NCBI RefSeq assembly: GCF_010367455.1 | Contig: NZ_WRPR01000112.1 | Location: forward strand, 124,001-188,000 | Origin: Candidatus Laterigemmans baculatus | Lineage (GTDB): Bacteria; Planctomycetota; Planctomycetia; Pirellulales; Pirellulaceae | Reading direction: 5' to 3' | Length of the DNA stretch: 64,000 nucleotides | In this document: piece by piece, positions 28,571 to 35,616 of the stretch | Layout of the letters: every line of letters begins with the position of its first letter | How positions within the stretch are numbered: position 1 is the stretch's first letter | Notes under the pieces: model-generated | Databases searched by the model: none | Seen by the model: the letters and a program-made list of their open reading frames with translations, nothing else | What the model was told of the DNA's origin: nothing | Program-made: the position numbers and the translations under genes

Positions 28571-29320
28571 CTAATGCGTCATCCGGGCCAGCGTTCCCGC
28601 GAGGGTTTGGCGGAGTCGGCTCCAAGCGGCCCGCGGGCCGGCGACGATGCCCTGGTTCACTTCCAGCTCGATTCCTCGGTAGTGCTCGATTCCTCGGTAG
28701 TGCTCGGGGGCGAAGCGGCGACGCAGATGGGTGGTCAACCCGTCGGCGACGCCCCGGTAGGGATGGTTCATCCGCACCCGCAGCCCGGGCTGTGCCTCTT
28801 CGAGCGCTCGCTTCCAAGCCCCGCAAAAAGCTCGTTCGCCGTTTCGCCGGGGGTCGTACAGCAGCCCGATGTCGACCGCTCGCTCGCTGCCGTTCCAGAC
28901 CGGTGTGAACGAGTGCACGGATATATGCAGCACGGGGACATGCAGCACGGGGACATGCAGCACCGACGCGGCGCGGGCTGCCGCCTCCGCGACTGCCTTG
29001 CCGACCGCTTCTTCCACCCGTTGGCGATAGGGATGGTAGTGCTCGCGGAGCAACCGCGCGCGGTCTTCCGGGCGCAGGTCGCGGGACCACTCGGAGAACA
29101 ACGAGCGATTGGAGAGCGAGCGGTTGAGGTCGACCAACAACCGCGTGACGGTCGCCGAGTACAGCGGAGCATCGAGCCGCCGAGCCAGTTGGCGAGCGAG
29201 CTGGAGCGCCCCGGGATCGAACCCGCGGTGGCTTTGCAGCGCCTCGCTGGCCGAAGCGAACCGCTCGGCCCAAGCGGGCGGCAATCGGTTGCCGCCATGC
29301 TCGCAGGTAATGATCCTCAT
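28571..29320 (-). CDS. N-formylglutamate amidohydrolase family protein
   Basis: 249 aa from the ATG at 29320. The frame runs further upstream but that part only shadows the next gene. Family features: CEHGGNRLPP at the N-terminus, HSFTPVWNG near 135-145 and a MNHPYRG motif. The family hydrolyses N-acyl amino acids with a metal; here the operon partners suggest a peptide-like or amide substrate instead of histidine breakdown. Two tandem duplications are coded: VLHVPVLHVPVLHI (15-bp units) and HYRGIEHYRGIE (18-bp units). ATGA overlap with the upstream GCS2-type gene implies coupled translation. Confidence 0.88.
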   Translation of the reverse strand: MRIITCEHGGNRLPPAWAERFASASEALQSHRGFDPGALQLARQLARRLDAPLYSATVTRLLVDLNRSLSNRSLFSEWSRDLRPEDRARLLREHYHPYRQRVEEAVGKAVAEAAARAASVLHVPVLHVPVLHISVHSFTPVWNGSERAVDIGLLYDPRRNGERAFCGAWKRALEEAQPGLRVRMNHPYRGVADGLTTHLRRRFAPEHYRGIEHYRGIELEVNQGIVAGPRAAWSRLRQTLAGTLARMTH

Positions 29321-30570
29321 GGGATGAAGAGCTGGTTCTCCGCCAGGCGGTCGCACAGATGGGCGTACACGGTGCGAAGGTGGTTGGGCGAAAAATCGTC
29401 CCCGACCGCCTGCAGAATCCGCGACGCCAAGGTTCCCGAGTGAACCAGTTTCTCGGCGACCGGTTTGAGCTCCGCCGGGAGCGCTTCGGCCCCCGATTGG
29501 TCGCTCCAGGAGAGCAGATGTTTCCAAAGCTCTCCGGCTGAGACCGAGGGCTGAGCCGGCGAGAGCGTGATCCCAAAATGAGCCAAGTAGGCGGCGTCGG
29601 TGATCTCCGCCGCTTCCCCCTCGCGGACCGTCTGCCGGAACAGCTGGCGCAGCGATCCGCTGTCGACCGCTTGCTGCTCGGCCGTCGAGGTGTGGATTTG
29701 CTCGACCAATCGCCGCACCACGCTGGTCGTCAAACCGGCGATCGCCAAATCGGCCGCCGGACATTCCTGCACGTCGATCACGCGGATCTCCAAGCTCCCC
29801 CGCTGGAAGCGGGCGATCGCGCCGCGGGAATTGAGGAACTCATCCTGCAGGACGCCATCGGGATCGTGCGGAGCGAGGTCGCGGTACATCGGCTCGAAGA
29901 TCGCTCTGCGGTATTCCGCTTCGCTGTAGACCGGCTCGGGGATCACCCCGCCGCAGACCGACGGAATGCGGTCGCAGTTGTGCTCGTAGACATTCAGCCG
30001 GGTGTCGAGATACTCCGAGCGGCGACCGTCGACGATCGGCGAACTGGCGGCCAGGGCCGGTAGGATGGGGAGCACCAGCCGCACCGCCGCATGCAGCCGC
30101 CCGAATTCCTCATCGCCGTCGAAGGGCAGGTTCAGGTGCATGCTTTGGACGTTCGACCAGCCATGCCCGGTGCAGTCGAAGATCCGGTTGAACGTCTCGT
30201 AGATCTCGCTCGAGTCGCCCAGCCACAACTGGGTCTCCCGCGCGGGCTGCATCCAGGGGTGCATCGCCGTGGGCATCAAGCGAGCCCCGAAAGCGGCCAG
30301 GCGTTTGTTGGCCGCTTTGACATTCTGGTGGAAATGCTCGGAGAGGCCGGCCAGAGACGGAGCCGGCTCGCTGGTCTTGAGCTCGATGACGTGATTGACG
30401 AGCTCGTTGGACCAGACGATCGCACCGCGCCGCAGGTCCGACACGGGATCGCCGTCGCGATCGACCAGAATGCGGTCGGCGACCGGTCGCACGTTCATGC
30501 GTTTCGCATCGATGATTCCATATTCGATCTCGATGCCCAGGGCGGAGAACAGGCCCAGCGTCGTGTTCAC
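29317..30570 (-). CDS. Glutamate-cysteine ligase family 2 (GCS2-like carboxylate-amine ligase)
   Basis: 417 aa from a GTG at 30570 that overlaps the upstream stop as GTGA. GCS2-type features: GIEIEYGIID near 12-20, MPTAMHPWM, a segment NVQSMHLNLPF and RGSLEIRVIDVQECP near 255-275. Such enzymes join an amino group to the gamma-carboxylate of glutamate using ATP. The preferred amine is unknown. It is sandwiched by a RimK-like ligase and an amidohydrolase in an overlapping operon, which argues for synthesis of an unusual gamma-linked or capped peptide. Confidence 0.88.
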   Translation of the reverse strand: MNTTLGLFSALGIEIEYGIIDAKRMNVRPVADRILVDRDGDPVSDLRRGAIVWSNELVNHVIELKTSEPAPSLAGLSEHFHQNVKAANKRLAAFGARLMPTAMHPWMQPARETQLWLGDSSEIYETFNRIFDCTGHGWSNVQSMHLNLPFDGDEEFGRLHAAVRLVLPILPALAASSPIVDGRRSEYLDTRLNVYEHNCDRIPSVCGGVIPEPVYSEAEYRRAIFEPMYRDLAPHDPDGVLQDEFLNSRGAIARFQRGSLEIRVIDVQECPAADLAIAGLTTSVVRRLVEQIHTSTAEQQAVDSGSLRQLFRQTVREGEAAEITDAAYLAHFGITLSPAQPSVSAGELWKHLLSWSDQSGAEALPAELKPVAEKLVHSGTLASRILQAVGDDFSPNHLRTVYAHLCDRLAENQLFIP

Positions 30571-32042
30571 GCGGATTCTCCATGAACCGATTTGCGTTGC
30601 TCAATCCGCTTCAGAAAGACTTCCATAATTCTTCGATACAATTCGTCTCGGAGGATTTGATCTTCGTAACCCGCGTCTAGATTCGGATTGTCGTTGACTT
30701 CGATCACATAGAAATTGCCATCCGACTCTTTTACATCCACGCCATACAAACCATCGCCAATCAGGTTGGCCGCTTTGAGCGCCACGGCGACCGCTTTTCG
30801 CGGGGCGAGCTCGACGGGGATCGTTTCGCTTTTGCCGTATTTTCCGTTCCCTTCGGCCGATTGCTGGATGATTTGCCAGTGTCCCGGCGCCATATAGTAC
30901 TTGCAAGCGAAGAACGGTTTGCGGTCGAGGATCCCGATGCGCCAATCGAAATTGGTAGATAGAAATTCCTGAGCGACGAGTAAATCGGACTTGCTAAAAA
31001 ATTCGTCCAGACGCGTCTTGAGTTCTTCGGGCGTCTTGACCTTGACCACGCCTTGCGAAAAAGCGCTGTCAGGTTTCTTGAGCACGCAGGGAAAGCCGAG
31101 CTGTTCGCCAATCTCCTCCGCATTGTTGCGGTGCACGATCAACGTCTTTGGCGTGGCGATCTTATGCCGCTGCATCAACTCCGCCAAATAGACCTTGTTG
31201 GTGCAGCGGACAATCGATTCGGGATCATCGATGACCACCAGACCTTCGCTCAGCGCGCGGCGGGCGAAGCGGTAGGTGAAATGGTTGACCGAGGTCGTCG
31301 CGCGGATGAACAGCGCGTCGTATTCGAGCAGATGGGCGGCCTGGTCTTTGGTGATTAGATCGACCGCAATCCCCAGCGACTCGCCCGCTTTGGCAAATTT
31401 CTTCAGCGCCGACGAGTTCGACGGCGAGTCATCCCCGGCCTGCGGATCGTGGAGGATCGCGAGATCGTACCGCATCCGCGGACGCTTTCGGCCGGCCGGC
31501 GACCGCCCGGCAAAATGCTTGTCCGCCGACTCGAGCACGAACGGCCAGTGCGAGGGAGGAATTTCGCGGCAGCCGATCGCTTTGATCGCGCGGAGCCGCC
31601 AGCGATCGCTCTTCGAGAAGCGAAACCGCAGCAAGGGGGCCGGGAAGATGTTGAACAATTGCCGGCTGAGCCGCTCGTAACGCGCCGCCGTGTTGCGTCC
31701 AAAGTAGACGCTCAGCGTGAAGTTCTCCGACTGCAGGGGCTTGAGCGATTGCTGGATCAGCTCGTCCAGTTCGTCGCTGACCAGCCGCAACATCGACGGC
31801 GACTGGATGTCCTGCAGCGTGATGATACTCGGGACCGGCTTGTGCCCCCGCGCCTCGGCCAAGAGCGAGACGTAGTAGCCGGTCGTCTGGTACTGGTAAC
31901 TGCTGCAGAGATTGAAGACGCGCGAGTGCCGCCGCTGCTGAGGCATGTCGGGGGCTAAGTAGGACCAGGCGTCGCAGACGTCGACGCTGGTGTTTTCCAG
32001 CGGCCAATCTTCCGCTGAATCAGAGACAATGAGCGCCGGCAT
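30567..32042 (-). CDS. RimK-like ATP-grasp ligase with N-terminal accessory domain
   Basis: 491 aa from the ATG at 32042; the frame runs upstream but the extra part shadows the peptidase gene. Residues 1-190 form a separate alpha/beta domain (VFNLCSSYQYQTTGYYVSLL, then RLRAIKAIGCREIPPSHW) like the RLAN domain that commonly precedes RimK-like ATP-grasp. The ATP-grasp core has FPCVLKKPDSAFSQGVVKV, the segment VAQEFLSTNFDWRIGILDRK and the metal-binding EVNDNPNLDAGYED. RimK-type enzymes form amide bonds between a carboxyl group and an amino acid. It is 29 bases downstream of the peptidase and overlaps the GCS2-type gene. Confidence 0.9.
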   Translation of the reverse strand: MPALIVSDSAEDWPLENTSVDVCDAWSYLAPDMPQQRRHSRVFNLCSSYQYQTTGYYVSLLAEARGHKPVPSIITLQDIQSPSMLRLVSDELDELIQQSLKPLQSENFTLSVYFGRNTAARYERLSRQLFNIFPAPLLRFRFSKSDRWRLRAIKAIGCREIPPSHWPFVLESADKHFAGRSPAGRKRPRMRYDLAILHDPQAGDDSPSNSSALKKFAKAGESLGIAVDLITKDQAAHLLEYDALFIRATTSVNHFTYRFARRALSEGLVVIDDPESIVRCTNKVYLAELMQRHKIATPKTLIVHRNNAEEIGEQLGFPCVLKKPDSAFSQGVVKVKTPEELKTRLDEFFSKSDLLVAQEFLSTNFDWRIGILDRKPFFACKYYMAPGHWQIIQQSAEGNGKYGKSETIPVELAPRKAVAVALKAANLIGDGLYGVDVKESDGNFYVIEVNDNPNLDAGYEDQILRDELYRRIMEVFLKRIEQRKSVHGESA

Positions 32043-32071
32043 CGGCGGGGGATCCTCGCGGGAAAAAACGC

Positions 32072-32797
32072 CTAGGACTGCGGTGGATGGAGGATGAGCA
32101 AATTGGCGTCGTAGGTCACGACTCCGAGCATAATCGATGCGAACACCCGGTCGATGCCCACAGCGTATTTGCGGTCCCGCGAGAGCGGGTTGCGTTCGAG
32201 CGGATCGGCCACGATCGCCTCCCGCCGCTCCGCATCGTAGCCGCACAGGACGACGAAGTGCCCGGCCGGAGAACCGCCGATGTCGTCCGGGACGACGGTG
32301 ACGCCATGGACCGGCTTCTCCAAGACCCGCTCCCGCGCTTCGCCGTACAGGAACGTCGCACTCAGGCCCGTCAGAATCGGCACGCCGGCCCGCAGATAGT
32401 TGCGGAGGAGGCTGATCGAAAATGTCTCCATCCGAATCTGGCCGCCGAGCTCCAAGTATTCCAGGTACGCGTCGGTCGCCACGCGGAGCTTGGGGATCGC
32501 TTTCCTCTCCCGCTGAGTCCGCAGTTTGTCGACGAGATCGACCCCGTGGTGAAACCAAGTCGGGTCGAAGACCTGTAAATTATACGTGTAGAGGGTCGAG
32601 GTGTAGCCGCGCGAAAGCGCGTGGCAGCCAAGCAGCACGGCGAGCGTGCCCCCGTCCTCGAGACGCCCCACTTGCTCAATCAATTCGGAGAGCTCGATGA
32701 CGTCGCCGTAGTAATCGTAGACGGCGTGCAGGCAGGTTGGGCCGCAGGTGGTGTCGTCGGGCTGGGCCAGCATTTCCAGATGCAAATGCTTGTTCAT
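32072..32797 (-). CDS. C39-like cysteine peptidase, first gene of an amidoligase operon
   Basis: 241 aa from the ATG at 32797. Papain-like/C39-type catalytic pattern: Cys in DDTTCGPTCLHAVYDYYG, His in GHFVVLCGYD and Asp in IVADPLERNP. No signal peptide is seen, so it is probably cytoplasmic, unlike ABC-fused C39 exporters. A leader-peptide cleavage or transpeptidase role is a guess based on the following RimK-like and GCS2-type ligases. First gene of a four-gene run ending with the amidohydrolase. A longer in-frame start upstream (32854) adds 19 residues without family support. Confidence 0.85.
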   Translation of the reverse strand: MNKHLHLEMLAQPDDTTCGPTCLHAVYDYYGDVIELSELIEQVGRLEDGGTLAVLLGCHALSRGYTSTLYTYNLQVFDPTWFHHGVDLVDKLRTQRERKAIPKLRVATDAYLEYLELGGQIRMETFSISLLRNYLRAGVPILTGLSATFLYGEARERVLEKPVHGVTVVPDDIGGSPAGHFVVLCGYDAERREAIVADPLERNPLSRDRKYAVGIDRVFASIMLGVVTYDANLLILHPPQS

Positions 32798-32939: not shown

Positions 32940-33329
32940 CTAGGAAATGTGGCTGGCCGACCACTCCGTCGCGGAATCGGTCAGCGGCACCGCGACCGGA
33001 CGGCGGTCCTGAGGCCGCCGCCGGGCTGCCAAGCCGCTGCCGGCCGCGCTCCCGCTCGAAGAACGAGCCTTGCTGGCCGCTGCTCGGGCCGGTCGAGCTT
33101 GCAAGGCCGGTCGAGCTTGCGAGGCCGGTTGCCCTTTTGAAGCCGCTCGGTCGTCCGAGGCACGCGTGGCTCCGTCCCCCTCGAACGCCAGTTCGCCGCG
33201 GCGGATCGCAACTTCTTGCGGAGCGTCGATTCCAATGATCACCCGGTTGCCCGAGATCCGCTGGACCGAAACCACGATGTCGTCGCCGATCCGGATCGTT
33301 TCACTCGCGTGGCGGCTGAGAACCAACAT
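32940..33329 (-). CDS. csrA: CsrA carbon storage regulator with long C-terminal extension
   Basis: 129 aa. The first about 55 residues are a full CsrA fold: MLVLSRHASETIRIGDDI, then VSVQRISGNRVIIGIDAPQEVAIRR. CsrA binds GGA motifs in mRNA leaders and controls translation or decay. The other about 75 residues are an Ala/Arg/Ser/Pro-rich tail with an internal duplication (QARPALQARPARA); usual CsrA is about 60-75 aa. AAGGGA lies seven bases before the ATG and contains a GGA, so autoregulation is possible. No flagellar genes are adjacent. Confidence 0.9.
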   Translation of the reverse strand: MLVLSRHASETIRIGDDIVVSVQRISGNRVIIGIDAPQEVAIRRGELAFEGDGATRASDDRAASKGQPASQARPALQARPARAAASKARSSSGSAAGSGLAARRRPQDRRPVAVPLTDSATEWSASHIS

Positions 33330-34155: not shown

Positions 34156-35616
34156 ATGTTGGCACCTTCGAAGATCTATCGCCGTCCGCAGGACGGGATT
34201 AGCACGCGGTCGAACCTTCGCGCCAGCACGGCCGATGGGGCGGCATTTGGCGTGATGGTCGGGCTCGGCGAAACGTTTTTGGCCGCCTTCGCGCTGGCCG
34301 TTGGGATGAGCGAGGTCGCCGCCGGTCTGGTCTCGAGTCTGCCCTTGCTGGCGGGCGGCTTGCTGCAACTGGTCTCGCTGTGGGCGGTCCGCCTGGTCGG
34401 TTCGGAGAAGCGGTGGGTGATCGCCTGCGCGACGCTCCAGGGGCTGGCGTTCGTGCCGCTGGTCATCGCCGCCTGCTACGGCTCCATTCCGCTCGCCGCG
34501 CTGCTCTTGATCGCCTCGGTCTACTGGGGCTGCGGACTGGCCTCCGGGCCAGCGTGGAATACCTGGATGCAGGGGATCGTCCCGGCGCGGTTGCGGGCGA
34601 CCTATTTTGCCCGTCGCACGCGGGCCAGTCAGCTGACCACGTTCGTTAGCTTCCTGCTCGGGGGCCTGCTGTTGGAGTGGGCCCGGCGAAGCGGGACGGA
34701 ATTGACGACCTTCGCCCTGCTGTTTCTCGGTGCCGGACTGTTCCGTCTGATCTCGGTCGCCTGTCTCGTGCGGCATCATGCGCTGCCGCCGGGCGACCGG
34801 CAGCCTCTCGCTCCGCCGCGCACCGCGTTGTCCCTGCGGGAGACCGCGGCGGCGGGCGGCCAAGCCAGGGCCAGCGCCGCCTCGGCCACGCTCTCGGCCA
34901 GCGAGTTTTCCGCGACTGGGCGGCGGTTGCTGGTCTATCTGGTGGTGGTCCAGGGGATGGTGCAGATTTCCGGGCCCTACTTTACGCCGTTCATGCTCGA
35001 GCAGCTCGATTACTCCTATAGCCAATTCGTCACGCTGACCGCCGTGGCGTTCGCCGCCAAGGGCGTGGCGCTGGCCGTCTGGGCTTCGCTCGCGCGACGC
35101 CGCGGGGCGGCGTGGCTGCTCTGGGTTGGGGGCTGCGGAATCGCCCCGATGTCGCTGCTGTGGGTGGTCTCTCAGAATTTCTTCTGGTTGGTCGCCGTGC
35201 AGATCTTCAGCGGTGCCCTGTGGGCGGCCTACGAACTGGGCTTCTTCCTGCTCTTCTTCGAGACGCTGCCGCTCCGCGCGCGAACCAAGATGTTGACCCT
35301 GTACAACTTGGGGAACACCTTTGCCTGGTGCGGAGGCTCGCTCGTCGGGGCCGCTTTGCTGTCGCACTTCGGGGCGTCGCACGGAGCCTACATGCTGCTC
35401 TTCACCCTCTCGTCGGTCGGTCGGATCTTGGCGATCGGACTGCTGATGCGAACCTTGCCGATCCGGCTCCCGATCCGTATCCCGGTCGTCGGGATCGGGA
35501 TCCGAATGCATGGCGTGCGTCCAGGCGGAAGCGGGGTCGACGTGCCGATCCTGCCCAGCATCCCGGCGACTCCCAACATGCCGGCAAGTTCGAGCGCCGT
35601 CAAAGCCGCAGGTTAG
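34156..35616 (+). CDS. MFS transporter
   Basis: 486 aa with about twelve hydrophobic segments in two halves split by a cytoplasmic loop rich in Ala and Arg (about 210-255). The first half has ADGAAFGVMVGLGETFLAAF and VGSEKRWVIACATLQGLAF. A segment ARLRATYFARRTRASQL lies after TM4-5. This looks like a permease-type MFS protein of unknown substrate. The C-terminal tail carries a duplicated-looking IRLPIRIPVVGIGIRM segment. The ATG at 34156 is the first in frame; no RBS is obvious. Confidence 0.88.
   Translation: MLAPSKIYRRPQDGISTRSNLRASTADGAAFGVMVGLGETFLAAFALAVGMSEVAAGLVSSLPLLAGGLLQLVSLWAVRLVGSEKRWVIACATLQGLAFVPLVIAACYGSIPLAALLLIASVYWGCGLASGPAWNTWMQGIVPARLRATYFARRTRASQLTTFVSFLLGGLLLEWARRSGTELTTFALLFLGAGLFRLISVACLVRHHALPPGDRQPLAPPRTALSLRETAAAGGQARASAASATLSASEFSATGRRLLVYLVVVQGMVQISGPYFTPFMLEQLDYSYSQFVTLTAVAFAAKGVALAVWASLARRRGAAWLLWVGGCGIAPMSLLWVVSQNFFWLVAVQIFSGALWAAYELGFFLLFFETLPLRARTKMLTLYNLGNTFAWCGGSLVGAALLSHFGASHGAYMLLFTLSSVGRILAIGLLMRTLPIRLPIRIPVVGIGIRMHGVRPGGSGVDVPILPSIPATPNMPASSSAVKAAG

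Follow-up and report, generated by a model that had tools for sequence, protein, structure and literature searches.

A conserved four-gene set of two predicted amide-forming ligases and two predicted hydrolases in Candidatus Laterigemmans baculatus

The four genes and their protein families

In a stretch of 64,000 nucleotides from Candidatus Laterigemmans baculatus (contig NZ_WRPR01000112.1, positions 124,001 to 188,000), hereafter called the window, four genes follow one another on the minus strand, namely (i) a gene for a C39-like papain-fold cysteine hydrolase (32072-32797; 241 aa), (ii) a gene for a protein joining an RLAN domain to a RimK/LysX-type ATP-grasp ligase (30567-32042; 491 aa), (iii) a gene with a GTG start for a GCS2-type gamma-glutamyl (carboxylate-amine) ligase (29317-30570; 417 aa), and (iv) a gene for an N-formylglutamate-amidohydrolase-like (FGase) hydrolase, here abbreviated FGA (28571-29320; 249 aa). 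While 29 bases separate the first two genes, the others overlap, as read in the sequence: the start of GCS2 lies over the stop of the ATP-grasp gene in a GTGA (30567-30570, minus strand) and the start of FGA over the stop of GCS2 in an ATGA (29317-29320, minus strand).

The RLAN ligase matches PF14401 over residues 27-169, i.e., positions 31536-31964 of the minus strand (158.8 bits for a cut-off of 25, E 1e-46), and the RimK-like ATP-grasp model PF08443 over residues 282-456 (47.6 bits for a cut-off of 21, E 1.9e-12). In its ATP-grasp domain, the nucleotide and metal residues K322, D436, E448 and N450 are invariant in 49/49 RLAN ligases. The AlphaFold2 (AF2) model, with a mean predicted local distance difference test score (pLDDT) of 88.4, matches LysX 3vpd (Z 28.1), ArgX (Z 27.8) and RimK 7qyr (Z 26.8) over residues ~189-485, a span beyond the RLAN domain; most LysX, ArgX and RimK matches lie at Z 26-28, and glutathione synthetase 1gsa comes lower, at Z 22.2. 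The models for RimK as a ligase adding glutamate to ribosomal protein S6 both remain out of reach (72.8 of 143.4 bits for TIGR00768 and 26.4 of 331 bits for PRK10446). In a study of Pseudomonas aeruginosa RimK, the poly-glutamate contacts include R64, R189, N262, S68, S7, R8 and S14, and the ATP contacts K141 and E178 (PMC10092738). Transferred through a pairwise alignment in which positions were counted by hand, the contacts R64, R189 and N262 correspond to the invariant R247, R368 and N450 of the RLAN ligase, and K141 to its invariant K322.

The GCS2 protein matches PF04107 at 93.2 bits for a cut-off of 21 (E 2.5e-26), with N55, E56, E63, R257 and E261 invariant in 56/56 proteins. Its AF2 model (pLDDT 95.3) is closest to the YbdK-type structure 1tt4 (Z 38.5, root-mean-square deviation 2.6, 347 residues aligned at 16% identity), followed by 1r8g of the same type (Z 38.1), the plant glutamate-cysteine ligase 2gwc (Z 33.3) and then the bifunctional GshAB 3ln6/3ln7 (Z ~24; 24.4 for 3ln7). 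None of the nine matched NCBIfam models for glutamate-cysteine ligase, EgtA or YbdK reaches its cut-off with this protein, the best score being 65.9 of 176.4 bits (TIGR02050), and EgtA standing at 13 of 370.8. More generally, no NCBIfam model exceeds its cut-off for any of the four proteins, for the RLAN ligase among the matches listed (25 of 44), so that NCBIfam names no specific known enzyme for the set.

Regarding the hydrolases, the C39-like protein matches PF13529 (44.9 bits for a cut-off of 24, E 2.3e-11) and also passes the model of the classical leader peptidases, PF03412, over residues 9-56 only (27 for 22 bits). Q12, C18, G19, H180 and D198 are invariant in 34/34 sequences including that of the window, and from what is known of the family Gln12, Cys18, His180 and Asp198 would form the expected catalytic set. 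Judged by eye alone, no signal peptide is seen at its N-terminus (MNKHLHLEML; P0001). The fusion to an ATP-binding cassette (ABC) transporter found in classical C39 peptidases was not encountered, the protein standing alone at 241 aa, and when open reading frames (ORFs) were clustered, no more than 6 loci had an ABC ATPase-like cluster in the vicinity of RLAN, with no constant spacing. FGA matches PF05013 (75.3 bits for a cut-off of 28.9, E 1e-20) and resembles Atu2144 2odf (E 3e-16); its score with the equivalog model of the N-formylglutamate deformylase HutG, TIGR02017, remains at 18.4 bits for a cut-off of 278.75. E7, H8, H136, E218 and E220 are invariant in 24/24 FGA sequences, with catalytic roles that family knowledge makes likely. 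In the window, FGA carries two in-frame tandem duplications on the minus strand, one of 15 bp (28925-28963) and one of 18 bp (28666-28706), both missing in 14 other homologues compared; they directly precede conserved residues, namely His136 and Glu218 respectively, and this copy of FGA is a putative hydrolase.

The initial annotation of this DNA had named these four families, all of which Pfam bears out, as well as the tight gene order with GTGA and ATGA overlaps, which indeed join genes 2-3 and 3-4. Its idea of two amide-bond formers and two hydrolases acting in a cytoplasmic pathway likewise holds up as far as families, residues and predicted folds can indicate.

Conservation of the neighbourhood

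The initial annotation had staked its reading on homologues of the four genes being found together, and they do occur together. Of 392 genomes searched from the same phylum as the window, 93 have RLAN, one row per genome being used, and 70 have this type of GCS2; 67 of the 70 also have RLAN. After the second piece of a split gene (G247) was dropped from 72 GCS2 rows, 67 of the 71 remaining matches follow RLAN on its own strand at a distance of no more than 3 kb, and the other four have no RLAN match on the same contig and strand. From 56 of the 92 RLAN genomes besides that of the window, wider stretches (5-18 kb) were taken. In a scan of named genomes, 40 of 80 loci have the complete set, spread over 12 phylum labels plus one locus with no label; as these 80 are the best of 585 confirmed matches, they favour close relatives. 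One of them (L094, WYBR01000028.1) is titled Vicinamibacteraceae (Acidobacteriota), yet its RLAN protein adjoins in the tree that of L052, a locus of the window's phylum, and the label or the binning of this metagenome-assembled genome (MAG) may be wrong. Since this Acidobacteriota label is doubtful, about eleven phyla rather than 12 should be counted, if the other record titles are right. Carriers include Thiobacillus thioparus, Nitrosomonas, groundwater MAGs, Pontibacter, Marivirga and Rhodopirellula, with the full set present in Thiobacillus thioparus (L101) and Pontibacter ruber (L103).

GCS2 is found in 113 of the 137 RLAN loci pooled from the phylum and the named genomes, and among these 113 C39 occurs in 101 and FGA in 70. 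The four genes are not one indivisible unit, and no other pair is as constant as that of the ligases. Where neighbouring members of the set are present, they are adjacent in fixed order within 400 bases in nearly every case, i.e., C39-RLAN in 102/103, RLAN-GCS2 in 108/113 and GCS2-FGA in 67/69 RLAN loci, with median gaps of 1, -4 and -1 bases, respectively. The eight exceptions comprise five gene fusions, one contig counted twice, where a GNAT-nitrilase gene is inserted before FGA (L038 = L150), and one wide gap (L057); L150 was included in the locus and adjacency counts and excluded from the tree and distance tests. In the pairs checked, the order is never reversed and two genes never lie on different strands. 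In the five fusions, the RLAN-ATP-grasp protein is continuous with GCS2, as seen with Pfam in four loci (L070, L075, L077 and L080), where the ATP-grasp part comes first and GCS2 second, and as one reading frame in the fifth (L078). The families, the invariant residues, this order and the ligase fusion of some loci are observed directly. Protein distances were also compared between the four families over 60 loci in which coverage of every protein was good; their matrices correlate (r 0.44-0.74), and for each of the six pairs 0/500 permutations, which ignore shared ancestry, are as high. Chance clustering of the four genes is ruled out by the phylum-wide co-occurrence, the locus counts and the constancy of order and strand.

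Clustering of ORFs of at least 80 or 90 aa, shorter ORFs not being clustered, brought out no further family in most loci that could count as a fifth constant neighbour, shadow frames of the core genes aside; the largest non-core cluster around RLAN reached 16 loci. Four loci have a class-II glutamine amidotransferase-type gene close to the module (minus strand; L052, 11401-12288; L094, 10436-11521; L106, 1265-2134; L112, 5208-6122). These loci form two pairs of close relatives and of which only L112 was identified with Pfam. A second RLAN-like reading frame lies near a complete module in two loci (L144, 11828-12199; L077, 1200-2552).

RLAN loci of another type were also met. In 10 of the 137 loci, RLAN stands beside a GNAT gene of one sequence cluster, GCS2 being nearby in none of the ten, and in four of these the GNAT gene is fused to a DUF3335-like, C39-type domain (L031, L073 and L079 by Pfam, L037 by a custom profile). 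Given these two locus types, an RLAN ligase with a C39-like partner appears as a wider theme in which GCS2 and GNAT look like alternatives, both of which may cap an amine. Thirteen RLAN loci have neither GCS2 nor GNAT, one of these with C39, and one further locus ends too early. In five genomes (L071, L072, L073, L074 and L081), all of the window's phylum and three of family f14, the RLAN and ATP-grasp domains lie in two separate reading frames, with adjoining GNAT genes in 4/5.

A fusion of GNAT and carbon-nitrogen hydrolase (Pfam, one member), here called GNAT-nitrilase, is found in seven loci, of which six are independent, at up to ~4 kb from RLAN as measured between midpoints. In five it shares the strand of RLAN, and in two (L049, L143) it lies on the opposite one. 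In Rhodopirellula baltica (L147), it comes after the module. Once six nitrilase-only rows of 69 genomes are dropped, matches spanning the GNAT part occur in 39 of the 70 genomes with the module GCS2 and in 24 of the 322 others (odds ratio 15.6, uncorrected for ancestry). In the genome of the window, this gene is on another contig (G000:C70:32102-33646, 63% identity). This co-occurrence is newly seen, and the protein, mostly unlinked, may be a fifth component of the module. Against such a role, 31 of the 70 module genomes have no match, 16 genomes have one without RLAN or GCS2, and the excess is weak in genomes with RLAN only (8/26, p 0.049). As for its own conserved neighbours, no family was found in more than 4 of 20 GNAT-nitrilase loci, shadow frames aside.

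Proposed pathway, alternatives and surroundings

We lean, if only slightly, towards reading the four genes as a pathway of the cytoplasm, in which a small glutamate-containing peptide is built and turned over following the logic of glutathione synthesis. Substrates, order of the steps and product are here proposed by analogy with that synthesis. In the first instance, GCS2 would activate the gamma-carboxylate of glutamate with ATP and join it to the amine of some acceptor. The ATP-grasp enzyme of the RimK/LysX clade, whose RLAN domain may recognise the substrate, would then form a second amide, linking another amino acid to a carboxylate of this compound, probably one belonging to a glutamate residue. 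Finally, amide bonds would be cut by the C39-like and FGA-like enzymes so as to trim, transfer or recycle the product, and a capping or amidase step may be contributed by the GNAT-nitrilase, whose gene lies elsewhere in the genome. That some genomes fuse the two ligases suggests they share one substrate, and the amidotransferase-type gene near four loci lends weak support to such a pathway.

Because the order is kept over about eleven phyla and the ligases are sometimes fused, the module probably belongs to the basic physiology of its carriers rather than being a local curiosity, its spread being patchy (GCS2 in 70 of the 392 genomes of the window's phylum). Should a small peptide be its product, there is a widely shared metabolite to identify, with these genes as a direct route to it, and the GNAT-nitrilase protein would gain a candidate pathway. 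It is tempting, but rather doubtful, to go further and suppose that the approximately eleven phyla share one glutathione-like peptide, made by the GCS2 and RLAN pair and matured by C39, FGA and a mostly unlinked GNAT-nitrilase, in two versions bearing either a gamma-glutamyl cap (GCS2) or an acetyl cap (GNAT-DUF3335).

Several observations weigh against a dedicated small-peptide pathway. RLAN occurs without this GCS2 in 26 of its 93 genomes. Beside the ligases, 43/113 loci lack FGA (in seven of these the stretch extends less than 2 kb past the stop of RLAN) and 12/113 lack C39, as counted in local stretches only, so that neither seems obligatory there. An RLAN tree was built with a quick method from 125 of the 137 rows, selected by length and without L150, and its long branches were marked. 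Mapping the label "with GCS2" onto it takes 10 changes, of which starred branches force at least 4, as against a mean of 18 for shuffled labels, and the module has therefore been gained or lost more than once. The permutation and Fisher tests, like the co-occurrence odds, ignore shared ancestry. As regards the RimK contacts given above, S68 falls on a variable position of the RLAN ligase and E178 on one with some variation, and the alignment does not reach S7, R8 and S14. PafA and Dop, a pair acting in protein tagging, share the GCS2 fold, at the lower Z of 15-20. Lastly, the closest ATP-grasp enzymes act on proteins, i.e., LysX and ArgX on LysW and RimK on ribosomal protein S6, and not on free peptides.

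These protein substrates of LysX, ArgX and RimK make protein modification the main rival; there, the RLAN domain would recognise a protein, the RimK/LysX-type ligase would add amino acids to it, GCS2 would gamma-glutamylate it or act like PafA, and C39 and FGA would erase the marks. Besides the fold shared with PafA and Dop, the pairing with proteases has its counterpart in RimK, which works with the protease RimB (PMC10092738, PMC12239564). We nonetheless regard this explanation as unlikely. The GCS2 model is far nearer to YbdK and the glutamate-cysteine ligases than to PafA (Z 38.5 versus at most 19.4), the fusion of the two ligases in five loci suits successive steps on one small substrate, and no conserved gene for a small protein or other target stands beside the module among the clustered ORFs, all of at least 80 or 90 aa; where a Pup-like gene is concerned, this negative extends no further than ORFs of that size.

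The product might also be an N-capped di- or tripeptide osmolyte like N-acetylglutaminylglutamine amide, with GCS2 or GNAT capping the amine and the ATP-grasp enzyme making the peptide bond. With this would agree the GNAT cluster beside RLAN, always in loci without GCS2 and four times fused to a DUF3335-like domain, the co-occurrence of the GNAT-nitrilase with the module, and the presence of the latter in Pontibacter, Marivirga and Rhodopirellula, genera known as halophilic or marine. Carriers also include, though, Thiobacillus thioparus, Nitrosomonas and groundwater MAGs, and in the open-licence PMC literature no paper was found joining N-acetylglutaminylglutamine with ATP-grasp; we regard an osmolyte as improbable. 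Very improbable is a salvage or detoxification role, where the hydrolases would be the main enzymes and the ligases would re-form or conjugate glutamyl compounds. In its favour, the set does hold two unrelated hydrolases, one of them, FGA, in the family of the N-formylglutamate deformylase of histidine breakdown (though at 18.4 versus 278.75 bits), and a sodium:solute symporter gene starts ~360 bases downstream of the operon on the same strand, but the most constant pair is that of the ligases, each hydrolase is often absent, and the symporter is no conserved neighbour, with weak matches in 2/136 RLAN loci (tblastn, E 1e-4 or better).

Around the operon, a csrA gene lies 142 bases upstream on the same strand (32940-33329, minus; Pfam match to residues 1-48 of 129) and a gene of the major facilitator superfamily (MFS) at 34156-35616 on the plus strand. 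By the same tblastn search, csrA, TrkH and NfeD of the window have matches in 0, 0 and 0 of the 136 loci, the CsrA query counting only 60 residues and misses thus being possible for it; with these counts and that of the symporter, all four were ruled out as parts of the system. The MFS gene has homologues near RLAN in 6 further loci, of which five bear planctomycete titles and one comes from a genome of the window's phylum, and this transporter might export the product of the pathway or be a mere case of synteny. Within the 64-kb window, no Rfam match to a known RNA regulator was found at gathering scores.

The two duplications in FGA are not isolated in this genome. The window holds 20 exact tandem duplications with periods of 12-24 bases, most often 15 or 18; 17 have a period divisible by 3, the sites including 12502, 21811, 28666, 28925, 46188 and 62909. 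By way of controls, five triplet shuffles gave 0-1, and 230 kb from relatives (13 loci) gave 0. Elsewhere in the same genome, ten stretches (144 kb) contain 17 duplications, 12 of them divisible by 3, with none in five of the stretches, and ten stretches of relatives (190 kb) contain 4. The pattern resembles a duplication process particular to this lineage, with selection for an intact reading frame acting as a filter.

Comparison with known systems

The proposed small-peptide pathway most readily recalls glutathione biosynthesis (GshAB/GshF). GshAB (3ln6/3ln7) joins a GCS domain to an ATP-grasp domain, and the module likewise pairs a GCS-fold with an ATP-grasp ligase, fused in the five loci mentioned above. 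It differs in that its GCS2 is nearest to YbdK and far under the cut-offs of the glutamate-cysteine ligase models, its ATP-grasp is RimK/LysX-like and not GshB-like (Z 28 versus 22), its fusions run from ATP-grasp to GCS2, and two hydrolases are included. With the YbdK carboxylate-amine ligases, the likeness is the best structural match of the module GCS2 (1tt4, 1r8g), whereas the identity is 16-17%, the score 65.9 versus 176.4 bits, and the gene stands next to RLAN in 67/71 matches. The glutamylation of S6 by RimK/RimB is alike in its RimK-clade ATP-grasp, in several nucleotide- and glutamate-contacting residues kept and in pairing a ligase with a protease; the module ligase, however, has an extra N-terminal RLAN domain and reaches 72.8 versus 143.4 bits, and its partners are GCS2, C39 and FGA instead of the retropepsin RimB.

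Closest in composition are the RLAN and GNAT-DUF3335 loci, where the same RLAN-ATP-grasp enzyme stands beside a C39-like papain-fold protein, with GNAT replacing GCS2 and FGA. The DUF3335-GNAT fusion is noted in a paper that cites Iyer 2009 for it (PMC10318531). For two other families of GCS2-like ligases, Iyer 2008 describes conserved neighbourhoods without a Pup-like gene and argues for glutathione-like or related peptides (PMC2588565). In the open-licence PMC literature, no paper was found joining RimK with formylglutamate or with RLAN, or joining amidoligase, ATP-grasp and N-formylglutamate amidohydrolase, and among the matches listed, judged by title and start of abstract, no experiment on the four-gene set was recognised. 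The amidoligase survey that Iyer and colleagues made in 2009 reportedly names RLAN and predicts pathways of ATP-grasp and GS-fold ligases with peptidases, probably with the present set among them. As such, the four-gene set probably belongs to a known, uncharacterised kind of predicted amidoligase system.

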